NCBI GenBank assembly: GCA_905221605.1 | Contig: CAJNDS010002843.1 | Coordinates: 1-64,000 of the forward strand | Length of the DNA: 64,000 nt | DNA from: Symbiodinium natans | Lineage: Eukaryota > Sar > Dinophyceae > Suessiales > Symbiodiniaceae | Reading direction: 5' to 3' | Shown: piece after piece, positions 7,921-63,405 of the stretch | How the letters are laid out: every line of letters starts with the position of its first letter | How positions within the stretch are numbered: the stretch's first letter is position 1 | Translations under genes and position numbers: made by a program | Notes under the pieces: model-generated | Database searches by the model: none | What the model saw: only the letters and a program-made list of their open reading frames with translations | Told to the model about the DNA's origin: nothing

Positions 7921-9240
7921 AACCCTAAACCCTAAACCCTAAACCCTTTAAAGGAACCTTAAGCCCTTGGGGACTTGTGCTTCGTGGCCCAAGTGCGGCT
8001 GGGCAGGCCATGGCAGCGGATCGATGGCACGCACAGCTTGAATCGGAGTGCGGAGGCTAGGCGAATCTGGCTGCGGGTTCGAGTTAAGATGTCAAGGGGT
8101 TCGCAAACACATCCTGGTTGAGGATCTCAAGTTACTGGAGCACTGCCGTCCATGTACCCTGAACCCTAATTGAACCCTAAGCCCTCAGTGTTTCAGTGTA
8201 CTGGAGCATAACGCAGCTTTTCCTCTGGTGCTGAGCCGCGCAGAGTGGGGTGTGCCGACCCTAAACCCCGAACCCCCCATAAAGATCACTGTAAAGAAGC
8301 ACTCTGGAGCAGTTTCCCTTCGGCCTCTGCCGAAGGAGTTGTGCGAGGCCTCCATTCTAGCCGAATTCTTCAGATTCCGGGCGTTAGTTGTGCCCTAAGC
8401 CCTAACCCTAAACCCTAAACCCTAAACCCTGAACCCTAAACCCTAAACCCTAAACCCTAAACCCTAAACCCTAAACCCTAAACCCTAAACCCTAAGCCTA
8501 AACCCTAAACCCGAATACTAAACCCTAAACCCTAATACACGGGTGCCTTCAGGAGTTCACCGCACCTCTCCCAATCAGCATACCTCGTGCCGGCATCTCT
8601 ACGTGAAGATGTTGGGTCCTTCAGAGACTGGATGCTGAAGCATCCCTTGAAATCTTGAAGGCCAACAACATGCGGACGCATGGGATTCTTTGCAGCTGCA
8701 GCTAAAAGTTCCGCAGGAACTATATACACGCTGCCTTGTGGTTTAGAGATATCCTGATGATTTCGGGTTTAGGGAATGCTTCTACTTTACGCCCGAAGCC
8801 TTAAACCCGAAACCTCAGGGCAAGGCTCCAAGGTTCGGACCAGGTCTTGAAACTTTACGCCTCCTTTTACGCCCTAAACTCCAAAAGCCCTGAACCCCAA
8901 GCCCGAAATCAAAACTGTGATCAGAAGCAGGGTTGAAGGGTGTAGGGTTTCGGGTGCCCTAAACCCTAAACCCTAAACACTAAACCCTAAACCGCCTGAA
9001 ACTCCCAACCCTTAGAAGCTTCACCAGGCCGGCGTCCACCAGGGCAGCCCTGCGCCGCGCCGAGCATTTGGTTTGAGGGAGGAGGCTAGGTTCTTGGATG
9101 TTCAGGGTCTCAACTGGTTACCCTAAACCCTAAACCCTAAACCCTGAACCCTGAACCCTGAACCCTAAGCCCTAAACCCTAAACCCTAAACCCTAAACCC
9201 TACACCCTAAACCCTAACCCCAAACCCAAAACCCTGAAAC
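7921..9240. repeat. Cluster of interstitial CCCTAAA telomere-like tracts
   Basis: Main tracts lie at 7921-7950, 8394-8535, 8957-8992 and 9120-9240, in the C-rich orientation, with variants CCCTGAA, CCCTAAG and CCCGAAA. Between them are 100-400-bp islands of unique sequence. One island near 8322-8392 has an open, protein-like frame (RPLPKELCEASILAEFFRF) and may be an isolated exon, but no neighbouring exon confirms it. The upstream region 7401-7920 holds nothing else recognisable. Confidence 0.8.
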
Positions 9241-9721
9241 CCTCAGGGCTGTGCAGGGTTTCGGAGTATTAGAGTTGGGATCCGCGGAGCACACTTGGAC
9301 CTGCTTGCTGTGGGGTCTCGTACTTAGGTCAGCGAGGCTTGCCCAGAAGGTGCGGACTTCTCCCACACTTCCTGTGCGGGAGCCCAGTATTTTGCAAGCT
9401 GCCAATCCCATGCTGAAAGCTCGTTGGGCCATCGCTGTGTGAGAACATCATCTGAGAGAATCTTCTATCCTTCCGAGGGCCTTGGACACTCCAGAGAGAT
9501 GCCGGCCGACTCAGCACTTGCCACGCATTCCAAAAGCAGCCGTTTTTTCGGCAAACACTTTTTGTTCTCCGCCCTCTGCCACCCCCCCCTGCCATCCTCG
9601 ATCCGCCGCCATGGGCAGGATTCTCCTGACCGTTCCTATGACAGCATCTCGTCTTTAGGTCTGCTCTAGGTCTTGAGGTCTTGGGCCTTGTCCCTGTGCT
9701 CTCTGCCCCAGCTGTCACTTT

Positions 9722-12700
9722 TTGCTTTCTGCACCGGAGGCTCTCGCAGTTCTCTCGGCGGTCATGGGCTCCGCATTGCCCAACTCCGCCTGCGAGCAGA
9801 ACGCACTGCTGCAGGTCACGAGCACCAGGCTCCAGGGGCCTTCCTTCCCAAGCCTTCCAAGTCTCCCAGGTCTTGTGCAACACGCCGCCGAGCGCAGTTC
9901 GCGGATGGACGAGGGACGACTCGAGGGTGTGAGGAAGGTGCACTCGGAGATTGAGGCCATGGTGAAGCAGCTGCTGACGGAGAAGAGTACAATGGAGACT
10001 GGGCGGAATCGCAGTGACTACAACCTGAGCAGCACCACCCTGGCGGTCCTCGACACAGTCAGCACAGAAATGCAGAGCTTGTTGGTGGAGATCAACGAGT
10101 CCCACATCGCGGATGAGCAGCTTCTTCTTGACCTGGCCCAGGCCTTCGTCCAGTGCAACACGGACCTCGCCCAGCGCCAGCTGCAGAGCGACAACCTCAG
10201 CAGCCTCGTGGCCAGTGCCCGCCAGTCCCACGATGCCTGCCGTGCGTCGGAGCAGAGCCTGACGGCGGCCAACGCCAGCTCATGGGCAGCCTATCTTGCT
10301 GCCGGCAGTGAGGCTCCCCCTGAGACGGTGAAGCAGTGCATGACGAACTTCGTCAATGGCCACAACCCAGAAGCAGTTGAGGACCTTGAGGCCATGACCA
10401 GCTGCGCAGAAACGATCCAGTCTTGGAGCTCTGACTTCGCAGCGAACATGACCAACCTGCAGAATACTTATACAAGTGACCTAAATGCAGTGAATCAGGA
10501 GAGAGTGTCTTGTCGCGTGAATCAATCGACGCTGGAGAGTCACTTCTGCGAGTACCGGCAGCAGCTTAGTGACAGCTGCATCGCCGTTGACAGCTGCCAT
10601 GAGAATGCCAACGCGACCTGGCACGAGCTCCTCGTGTCCATCGCAGCCTCGGACGTGCGACGTGAATCCTCCTTCATTGCGGCCACAAAGGTCATCTGTT
10701 ACATCCAGGTCCTCCAGTCGAACCTGACCCAGCCAGCAGTCCAGGAATGCCAAGACCTTACAGCCGACACCTCTGTGATCAACGTCAACATCCCCACGCC
10801 GGCCGGGATCGCGACCTGTGACGCCTCGCCCGTGGCCACCTTCCCCTGCGAGGCAGGTCACCCCGCATTTGTTCATGCAGCTTCGGATCTGCTTCGAATC
10901 TGTGACCTGGGGCTGCTTGTGTTCATCTTTGCACAATGCAGAACTCTCGAAGTTGTGGATCTTTTGGTTCCCGTCTTAGTAGAATGTAGAAGGACCAGCT
11001 TGGGGCCAGATTGAAGTCTTCTTGAACATGCTGAATGTCACGCTGTATCACGCTGTCGTTGGTAGGCAGCCTGGTTGGACATGGAGTACTTCAACAAGTC
11101 TTGGTACACGCAGCAGCCGCAGATCCTCCCCGACACCTGCCCCCGCCTCGGTTTAGGGTTTAGGGTTTAGGGTGTAGGGTTTAGGGTTTAGGGTCCGGCA
11201 CTGTTTCGTGCTCGTGCATGCTTACGCTGTTGAGTGGCTTGCCCGCTCTTGAGGCATCAGCTGTGCGGCGCGGGTCACGACGACCACGACCACCCTCGCA
11301 GTAGTCGTGCCAGCCCGGAGCCCAGACCCATCCTGGGGAGAGAAGGAAGAGCGGGAGAACTGTGGGATAGAGTGGGATATCCCGCAAGATTTCGGAAGCT
11401 GCTTGTATCCAGCCGGTGAACTGGGGAGCTACCTTGTGTGCATTGGCGATCCGACTCGTCCCGGGTTTTGGAAACTTGGAAACTCCCCCTTCCGTAGAGC
11501 GAAGTTCATGTCGAAACTGTCGCAGCCCAGGACAACAGCGTGGCGGCTGTGTTCCTGTCCACCTGTGCCGTCACCAGCCAGGTGCCCACCAAGTTGCAGT
11601 GTGTCGGCGAAAGTTCCGGCGGACAATTGGGAGGCCCCGGCTATCCGGCCTACGTTGATCTGGGAAGTCGCACGGCAAGCCGTGTGTTCGGCCCTACTTG
11701 CTGCAGATTCTGCGCCCTCCTGGACAACGAGGATCTCAAGTGCTGGGGAGGCAACAGTAATGGGGAGCTGGGCTTGGGCGACACAAACCACAGAGGGGAC
11801 ACCTCCGGAGAGATGGGTAATTCCCTCCCCGCCGTGAGTGTGGGCTCCGGGCGCAAGGTGGCAAGTGTTTGGCGGACCCCACCACGTCTGCGCCATCCTG
11901 GACGACCAGTCCCTCAAGTGCTGGGGCCATGGAGCTAACGGCATGCTGGGCTTCACACCCTCCAATGGCCCGAATGTGGGTGATGCCCCGAATGAGATGG
12001 GTGACAACCTTCCCGTCGTGAGTTTCGGTGCCCTGGAGGGTAGCCACCAGGTGCTGGGTGGCTCAGCCTGGTGGCACGTGTGCGTGCTTTTGGACCACCC
12101 AGCCGAAGTTACACAGCTGGCGTGCTTTGGGGTGAATGGGGGTGAAGGGCGTCTCGCACGTGGAAATACAGACCATCATTCACTGACTCCCATGCCGGTT
12201 GATCTGGGCACCGGCTTTCATGCAGTGCAGGTTGCATGCGGCGAGACTCACACATGCGCTTTGCTCCAAACTGGCGCCGTGGCTTGGCTGCATCGTAGAT
12301 TCTGTCGTAGATGCAAGCGATGCATGAGGCATGATGTAGCGCATGAGGAAGCACGCAAGCACCTCAAGCGCCTGAGGTGAAATGCTGGGGCGGCAACGGC
12401 AATGGCCAGTTGGGCAGAGGTGCCCCTGCCGTCGATGTCAACAACGTGGGTGCGAGCCCGGGTGACATGGGTGACAACTTGCCAGCCGTCGACTTGGGTA
12501 CAGACCAGGGTGGCAAACCGCTGTGCCTGGGACGGGGGTTTTGGATGGTTTTGGATGTGGGACATAGGGGGATCCTGGAAATCAGCTGGACTTGTAAGCA
12601 TCTCAGGAAAGCCATTTAAATTCTAACCCCTAAGCCCTAAACCCCAAGTGCATCTCAGGAAAGCCATCTACATCATGGTTGGTCACAGGCATTCGTGTGC

Positions 12701-63156: not shown

Positions 63157-63170
63157 CATATGTACATGCG
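62872..63170. repeat. AT-rich (TAAATA)n and (TA)n repeat
   Basis: About 300 bp of AAATAT, TAAATA and TATA units immediately downstream of the CCCH gene, AT content near total. Confidence 0.95.
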
Positions 63171-63223
63171 CATGTTCGCTTGCCTTAAGAATCGTTGTCT
63201 GCTTTTTCAAGTTCCTTGCTGAG

Positions 63224-63405
63224 GCCCCGGAGGCGCAGCTGTCAGCTAGCTGGCGCCTGGCGATGCGGTCGCAGGCGGAGAGAGTTGCATCGCCGGGCGC
63301 GTGCATGCCCGGGATGGGGGTTTAGGGTTTGGGGTTTAGGGTTTGGGGGTTTAGGGTTTAGGGTTTAGGGCTTAGGGTTTAGGGTTTAGGGTTTAGGGTT
63401 TAGGG
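63224..63405 (+). other. Exon-like island followed by TTTAGGG tract
   Basis: From about 63224 the frame APEAQLSASWRLAMRSQAER is open to ATG-GGG at 63317 and is followed directly by GTTTAGGG repeats (to 63405), the same exon/array junction seen at supported exons. The gene is unknown and continues beyond the recognisable part. Confidence 0.4.

Follow-up and report, generated by a model that had tools for sequence, protein, structure and literature searches.

The stretch analysed here, which we call the window, comprises the first 64,000 nucleotides of contig CAJNDS010002843.1 from the dinoflagellate Symbiodinium natans and carries several putative protein-coding genes interspersed with arrays of TTTAGGG or its complement CCCTAAA. 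The telomere repeat of dinoflagellates is TTTAGGG (PMC11453091). A pattern scan of the window found 131 strict pieces of this repeat (80 C-rich and 51 G-rich) totalling 7,180 bp. Merging these into arrays of at least 20 bases, with a tolerance of two mismatches in every 14 bases, gave 98 tracts (53 C-type and 45 G-type on the plus strand) that cover 9,328 bp, or 14.6% of the window, with a median length of 80 bases and a maximum of 538. The tracts are interstitial telomeric sequences, that is, telomere-repeat arrays located away from chromosome ends. An earlier prediction made from the letters of the window (the original prediction) gave the start and end of the tract-bearing region correctly (Table 1) and, at about 85 tracts (roughly 46 C-rich and 40 G-rich), undercounted its contents. 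The exons of a sulfatase gene at 5.3-7.2 kb and a long open reading frame (ORF) at 18.9-22.7 kb are free of tracts.

One of the genes in the window is predicted to encode a helicase. The motifs GGGKS (36241), CEECHR (36898), GFTGTP (37159) and GFDEPRL (39147) are found on the plus strand between tracts, as had been claimed. When eight predicted exons were joined, mostly via X spacers, exons 2-4 reached the cut-off for the SWI2_SNF2 domain (27.1 bits with a cut-off of 26.7, E = 3.8e-6), and the last joined exon gave a T1R_D3-like match below cut-off (E = 0.0015). Single-frame Pfam scans of this region yielded no helicase match, and a search of the Protein Data Bank (PDB) with the helicase exons returned no match. 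Searching the genome with the helicase protein identified this locus as the sole match, exon by exon. Since the joined exons match one domain model across tracts, some tracts lie between consecutive colinear exons of a single gene, including at least a tract at 36,313-36,406 and a degenerate one at approximately 37,060-37,106. The share of tract sequence in the predicted helicase introns ranges from nearly all, in the 66-bp intron at 38139-38204, to about a quarter. The exon that follows this short intron was matched at 38202-38369 in the genome protein search, and GA donors such as the one predicted for it make up 18.4% of those in S. natans (PMC10666404). The claim that tracts form the bulk of introns is therefore correct for some predicted introns and not for others, and it does not extend to the tract-free sulfatase exons and long ORF.

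Other coding features were examined with Pfam on the plus strand, where positions 1-14,999 and 18,000-62,498 were scanned in three frames together with seven picked stretches or joined exons; the scans of 15,000-18,000 and of the last 1.5 kb were partial, and those of the minus strand covered two frames of 36,000-50,997. Matches to RCC1 repeats were present as claimed. The original prediction had also named an ion channel, for which we obtained a weak match to an S4-like segment (Table 1) and could not confirm S6. The two halves of a dehydratase-like domain were likewise not confirmed; GYGPRF, at 29471, falls in ORF 28532-29578, where the matches are to TPR and below cut-off. An Rfam search found nothing at gathering thresholds.

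The tracts are not peculiar to this contig. We searched a genome of 759,417,921 bases in 2,543 contigs, the first of which is 3,396,986 bases long, for an exact 21-mer (three copies of CCCTAAA) and found 1,184,385 and 1,185,204 sites on the two strands, or about 2.37 million. The reversed pattern used as a control had 33 and 41 sites (74 in all). The 21-base spliced leader of dinoflagellates, the sequence of which is given in PMC8045281, occurred at 150 + 151 = 301 sites with at most one mismatch and its reversed control at 0, which identifies the host as a dinoflagellate. For an unselected sample we took 10-kb stretches starting at position 50,001 of contigs of at least 59 kb that were picked by number (L011-L020); eight further contigs were too short to yield one. 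Six of these ten loci contained at least one tract. Four had three or more, covering 1.2 to 30% of the locus, and the other six had 0-2. Together, tracts made up 5,644 of 99,310 bases (5.7%) in these loci, the mean GC content of which was 51.3%. Scaling the 14.6% of the window by 21-mer density gave about 8%, so that the tract share of the genome is roughly 6-8% overall. Four more loci (L009, L010, L031 and L032) were picked for containing tracts and were excluded from this estimate. These results agree with the claim that ordinary telomere location does not explain the tracts, which lie between exons of one gene and in most of the unselected loci, 50 kb into contigs of at least 59 kb (contig ends not being equivalent to chromosome ends).

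The orientation and spacing of the tracts follow a rule. In the window and L009-L032, 68 of the 88 gaps leading from a C-type to a G-type tract measured 70-150 bp (median 109, middle half 93-133), compared with 24 of the 82 gaps in the opposite order (median 201; Fisher odds ratio 8.2, p = 3e-10). Between tracts of the same type, gaps of this size were seen in 19/75 (CC) and 8/52 (GG) cases. When only the window and L009-L020 were considered, the counts were 47/62 for C-to-G and 16/57 for G-to-C. Genome-wide, a C-type repeat was followed by a G-type repeat at a spacing of 80-110 bp 83,227 times, versus 35,412 for the opposite order, and at 300-330 bp the two orders were nearly equal (143,516 and 134,098); these counts include repeated hits within long tracts, and the reversed controls of all four were 0. 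Either tract order reads identically on both strands, and therefore this rule can be stated without gene annotation. The favoured arrangement, which is a bias, is a C-tract, exon-sized DNA of about 109 bp and a G-tract. We also folded 19 G...C units of the window (a G-tract, a core and a C-tract) as RNA, and all 19 folded end to end with 24-101 G-tract:C-tract pairs. Such pairing is expected from complementary repeats and is not evidence of function, although it could bring flanking exons together in RNA.

The DNA between a C-tract and the next G-tract resembles exons in several respects. These C-to-G segments have a GC content of 0.60, compared with 0.537 for G-to-C segments, and GC climbs from the tract edge toward the middle of the segment. 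The mean exon of S. natans, a species with 14.7 introns per gene, is 106 bp and the GC content of its coding sequences is 58.2% (PMC10666404). The exon segments of the helicase that carry the P-loop and GFDEPRL are C-to-G segments. The best reading of these data is that many C-to-G segments hold an exon plus some intron on each side and that not every segment is an exon.

Some tracts carry marks of insertion. Among 310 tracts in the window and loci, 307 had enough flanking sequence to be tested for direct repeats directly beside a single tract, and 18 of these had repeats at a score of at least 9, whereas 20 shuffles of the partner flanks averaged 1.00 and never exceeded 3. We set aside six that lie in tandem or degenerate arrays (L009 2244, 2361, 6456, 6495 and 6534; L010 7529), leaving 12, or about 4%; the least clean among these are L031 7579 and L032 4105. 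In the cleanest case, in L010, the 18 bases TAACCCACCTGCCATGAA are followed by 48 bases of telomeric repeat and then by the identical 18 bases. The two copies differ at three or four positions across 19-24 bases in three further duplications, which would be expected of older ones, and the duplicated targets span about 9-24 bp. The degenerate insert at 12616-12649 lies just upstream of an RCC1 repeat, and its duplicated stretch contains CAG|G, a possible 3' splice site, so an acceptor site may have been copied when the insert arrived. The 24-base duplication in L017 stops at a putative exon start. A 10-bp direct repeat also surrounds one whole G...C unit in the helicase gene (35921-36223). Removing this unit with one repeat copy leaves a 67-codon open frame in the frame of GGGKS, the minus strand being open as well, and the RNA fold of the unit has 42 G-tract:C-tract pairs. 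Inspection by hand of 13 duplicated targets (the 12 and the helicase unit) found AGG or CCT in eight, where about four are estimated by chance; this enrichment is suggestive only.

We looked for an empty site by joining the flanks of the L010 insert (approximately 2664-2744, with a 16-bp duplication) without the insert and searching the genome with the result. Of 1,341 first-look candidates 40 were scored. The L010 locus itself matched in two halves, and 39 other places matched the joined flanks without an insert at 89-96% identity, starting from query position 33-35. The insertion point lies after position 126; 38 of these 39 matches reach position 129 or beyond and one reaches 126. The repeat element shared by these places seems to end near this point. 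The 48-bp telomeric insert thus appears to have landed just inside the end of a repeat element and to have duplicated 16 bases of it. The same search with a second insert returned its own locus and no other copy in the genome. Judged from their flanks, some tracts were evidently inserted with duplication of the target, so the claim that telomeric DNA has repeatedly been inserted is borne out for a minority of tracts, by flanking repeats and one empty site.

Telomerase adds TTTAGGG only to 3' ends. We consider it moderately probable that the tracts represent interstitial insertion of telomeric DNA at breaks, on a very large scale, in a dinoflagellate nuclear genome and that splicing makes them tolerable near exons; insertion is perhaps still ongoing. 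A staggered break would open the DNA, the presumed enzyme, telomerase, would prime on one or both 3' ends and add TTTAGGG, and the ends would then be filled in and rejoined, with fill-in producing the duplicated target of about 9-24 bp. A G-type tract would mark a healed left end, a C-type tract a healed right end and a head-to-head G...C pair the healing of both. Because telomerase extends 3' ends only, the DNA retained between inserts would tend to have a C-type neighbour on its left and a G-type neighbour on its right, in agreement with the observed orientation bias. Inspection of the sequence showed that long repeat arrays contain stops in all frames on both strands. An insert in coding DNA would thus break the frame and be tolerable only if spliced, and inserts would be predicted to persist where they are removed in new or enlarged introns near exons. 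It is possible, if doubtful, that telomere-repeat addition at breaks has been the main recent source of intron sequence in this dinoflagellate. Target duplication preferentially over AG|G would then supply both splice sites, and head-to-head healing would provide a G-rich start and a C-rich end that pair and bring the exons together. The donors would be GC, GA or GT and the acceptors would be AG|G, and intron gain would be a by-product of telomere maintenance.

Several results weigh against insertion by telomerase at breaks. With the identified genes of the window on the plus strand, C-type tracts stand on the acceptor side of 27/39 exon-sized gaps, and G-type tracts on the donor side of just 19/39. 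Telomerase would be predicted to give equal bias on both sides, and this asymmetry leaves room for an effect of splicing. We found no telomerase-RNA-like shared sequence beside the tracts. A recognisable duplication is seen at just the 12 tracts described above, so that insertion by this route is presumptive for most tracts, and two of the 12 (the least clean ones) lie in degenerate or G-rich surroundings. Whole G...C units are flanked by repeats at a score of at least 9 in one of 57 cases, a number that 30 of 200 shuffles reach. The uninterrupted match at the empty site extends just 3 to 14 bases beyond the insertion point. The coding signal is also weak. The mean codon-usage z of C-to-G segments is just 0.98; for G-to-C segments it is 0.24 (p = 0.03). 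It does not differ significantly in C-to-G segments from that of tract-poor loci (0.82, p = 0.16) and is below that of known exons (2.21), which had been left out of training. Open frames in exon-sized segments show no clear excess over dinucleotide shuffles, AG|G has no peak at tract edges and no splice-site signal occurs at a fixed distance from the tracts. The original prediction that tracts were inserted into genes and are spliced out, making new introns or enlarging existing ones, remains plausible in light of the colinear helicase exons and the exon-sized arrangement, and is weakened by the coding signal and the lack of an AG|G peak.

Other processes could place telomeric repeats near exons. 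If the tracts were the ends of introner-type DNA transposons with telomere-like terminal inverted repeats, each intron would be one element with a 5' G-tract, a 3' C-tract and a target duplication. The end-to-end folding of all 19 units, albeit expected of complementary tracts, is a trait described for dinoflagellate introners (PMC7789003), introners are defined in PMC10666404 by inverted repeats at both intron ends, and the helicase unit has a direct repeat around it. However, when the window and 12 loci were compared after masking the tracts, no multi-copy introner family was apparent in this small sample of 183 kb: there were few inter-locus matches (15 rows), and within the window the matches were mostly local repeats, apart from one pair of about 105 bp. 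In addition, 71 C-to-G segments share no sequence, the flanking duplications surround single G or single C tracts, which a two-ended element leaves unexplained, the G...C units lack a clear excess of flanking repeats (1/57), and 27 of 119 exon-sized gaps have one side of the wrong type (CC or GG). We therefore regard such elements as unlikely. Selection on splicing, in which a preference for G-triplets after 5' sites and C-rich DNA before 3' sites favours growth in place of a slippage-prone 7-bp repeat, needs no insertion. It accounts for tracts near exons and for the C-type bias on the acceptor side, and variant arrays (TTTGGGG and the 9-bp unit CCCCTAAAC) attest to local amplification. It predicts neither the 9-24 bp target duplications nor insertion into a repeat element, and the unbiased donor side and the missing splice-site signal at fixed tract distance do not fit, making it quite unlikely as the source of the tracts.

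Retroposition would have a LINE-type reverse transcriptase copy a TERRA-like transcript or the telomerase RNA into nicked DNA, with duplications of 9-24 bp. The observed duplication lengths and the inserts of a single orientation suit this process, and retrotransposition in Symbiodinium is mentioned in PMC8045281. By contrast, the inserts have no tail or common end sequence, and neither the head-to-head G...C pairs nor the rule of C-tract, segment and G-tract is explained, from which we judge retroposition to be quite unlikely as well. The fragmentation of the assembly into 2,543 contigs is a reason to consider that the tracts stem from faulty assembly or are simply the DNA of chromosome ends or subtelomeres. 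Both possibilities are very improbable, given that the tracts are short, lie between exons of one gene with distinct flanks, are found in 6/10 unselected loci and occur in both orientations in equal numbers; moreover, the likely source assembly combined PacBio and short reads (PMC8045281).

Comparison with known systems places insertion at breaks in context. Among mammalian interstitial telomeric sites, target duplications were reported at 6/130 in rodents and 4/25 in primates (PMC2246262), and a proposed origin of head-to-head tracts at 3/41 vertebrate loci is telomerase activity at both sides of a break (PMC8537989). Like the tracts in S. natans, these are short internal arrays, inserted in one step, with duplications in a minority and sometimes head to head, and they were ascribed to telomerase (PMC2246262, PMC8537989). 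They differ in that those sets comprise 25 to 130 or 41 loci (PMC2246262, PMC8537989), whereas we counted 2.37 million 21-mers in S. natans and found an exon-sized spacing rule. Dinoflagellate introners, with pairable inverted repeats near intron ends, direct repeats near the boundaries and a role in intron gain (PMC7789003, PMC10666404), may be similar. Introners differ in that their motifs are 8-20 nt long, whereas here the tracts extend over tens to hundreds of bases, intron borders are predicted, the cores are largely unrelated to each other and single tracts also occur. The repeat-rich segments of Eimeria are comparable in that an alveolate genome is banded with dispersed TTTAGGG arrays, although those arrays accompany CAG repeats in coding regions (PMC9131526) and a single exact CTG run of at least 5 units is present in the 64 kb of the window. 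With a single CAG/CTG run of this size and a dinoflagellate host, we rejected a repeat-rich segment of the Eimeria type.

Telomere-bearing elements of Oxytricha are mobile DNA with telomeric ends, in which the element is capped by a C-type repeat on the left and a G-type repeat on the right. In S. natans it is the host DNA between inserts that carries this arrangement. Precedents exist for interstitial telomeric sequences, for introner elements and for the dispersed TTTAGGG of Eimeria; the scale and the exon-centred arrangement look new, and the orientation rule and target duplications go beyond what the original prediction had observed. Among the papers listed by searches of open-licence literature, none was seen to describe telomeric repeats that serve as intron material in a dinoflagellate, and "telomer" has 0 occurrences in the main text of the S. 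natans paper (PMC8045281). The question of how introns arise in genes is an old one, and the arrangement in this intron-rich species hints at a new route for intron gain or enlargement. A genome that is several percent telomeric repeat around exon-sized units, with target duplications visible at some tracts, allows an untried route, through telomerase or telomeric DNA at breaks, to be tested directly on long-read genomes and transcripts that already exist. If our reading is correct, telomeric tracts may be among what is counted when introners are sought through inverted repeats at the ends of introns, and the signal of a telomere probe in such species may go well beyond the chromosome ends.

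Some tests were dropped or given low weight. A bias in the phases at which tracts start and end, considered as an enzyme signature, looks like a consequence of the A in TTTAGGG changing more often than the other bases. The open-frame test of exon-sized segments is uninformative in GC-rich DNA, and in the in-frame joining test for AG|G, AG did no better than other dinucleotides. Open frames across the removal of inserts are long, partly by chance, and often present on both strands, so they carry little weight, including in the helicase and RCC1 cases, in which the frame is set by a motif. Assigning strands in the other loci through codon usage was too noisy. With three frames scanned for each, Pfam detected no domain on the minus strand of L032 or on the plus strand of L009, and of six matches in a search with PF00118, four were in one gene whose loci have no tracts.

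Table 1. Coordinates of tracts, inserts and putative coding features in the 64,000-nucleotide window
Feature	Position	Strand	Remarks
Region containing all 98 merged TTTAGGG/CCCTAAA tracts	7921..63405	.	Pattern scan; first tract starts at 7921, last stops at 63405
C-type insert	8133..8208	+	10-bp direct repeat TACTGGAGCA at 8133-8142 and 8199-8208
Degenerate C-type insert (34 bp at 12616-12649)	12598..12667	+	18-bp direct repeat GCATCTCAGGAAAGCCAT at 12598-12615 and 12650-12667
C-type tract closing ORF 28532-29578	29568..29721	+	ORF with weak TPR matches
G-tract/core/C-tract unit in helicase gene	35921..36223	+	Direct repeat GAGAAGCTCC at 35921-35930 and 36214-36223
Putative P-loop (GGGKS) exon segment	36204..36313	+	C-tract left, G-tract right
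Putative helicase exon, CEECHR	36628..36978	+	Motif and genome protein match
Putative helicase exon, GFTGTP	37141..37245	+	Motif and genome protein match
Predicted helicase intron, 66 bp, nearly all G-type tract	38139..38204	+	AAG|GA to CAG|GA, phase 0 on both sides
Putative GFDEPRL exon segment of helicase	39111..39212	+	C-tract left, G-tract right
S4-like voltage-sensor segment	52037..52167	+	C-tracts on both sides; Ion_trans weak, E = 0.074

Further repeats occur among the tracts. G-rich arrays of the TGGGGGG type at 44185-45137 are possible quadruplex-forming DNA. At 51667-51766, 11 copies of the 9-bp variant CCCCTAAAC adjoin a CCCTAAA array, consistent with local amplification of an altered unit, and a 21-bp repeat, TTTTACTGGGCAAGGTCATTT, forms direct and inverted arrays at 54002-54315 between telomeric tracts. 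In L009, a 39-bp tandem unit at 6456-6566 itself holds telomeric repeats. A small dispersed repeat lies between tracts at 51463-51566 and 58641-58743 (about 83% identity) and in L017 at 468-524 and 7737-7784, and may be a shared intron element. The element into which the L010 insert landed, a foldback of approximately 100 bases (TGTAGCCATATAGTATATACTTG...CAAGTATATAATATATAGGTACA) at L010 2588-2683 with related arms at L031 4223-4334, is a candidate miniature inverted-repeat transposable element (MITE) or introner.

Elsewhere in the window, a tandem duplication of about 2 kb (1-2090 and 2547-4515, at least 97% identity) is without telomeric tracts. Downstream of ORF 14762-15970, which has zinc-finger matches below cut-off, an 835-bp (TCTTTCTC)n array at 16592-17426 lies beside an (ATGT)n array. 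ORFs 18927-22673 (1,248 codons) and 22529-24241 (571 codons), within 18457-24530, have no Pfam match and no tracts, and we take them to be retrotransposon-like. Around them, 18457-18501 recurs at 24366-24410 (98%) and 24274-24370 at 24434-24530 (100%), and these may be terminal repeats. Beside the tract-laden genes, a single uninterrupted ORF at 34194-35261 encodes a GH54 alpha-L-arabinofuranosidase catalytic domain (ArabFuran-catal, E = 2.7e-121), which possibly derives from gene transfer or is a retrogene.

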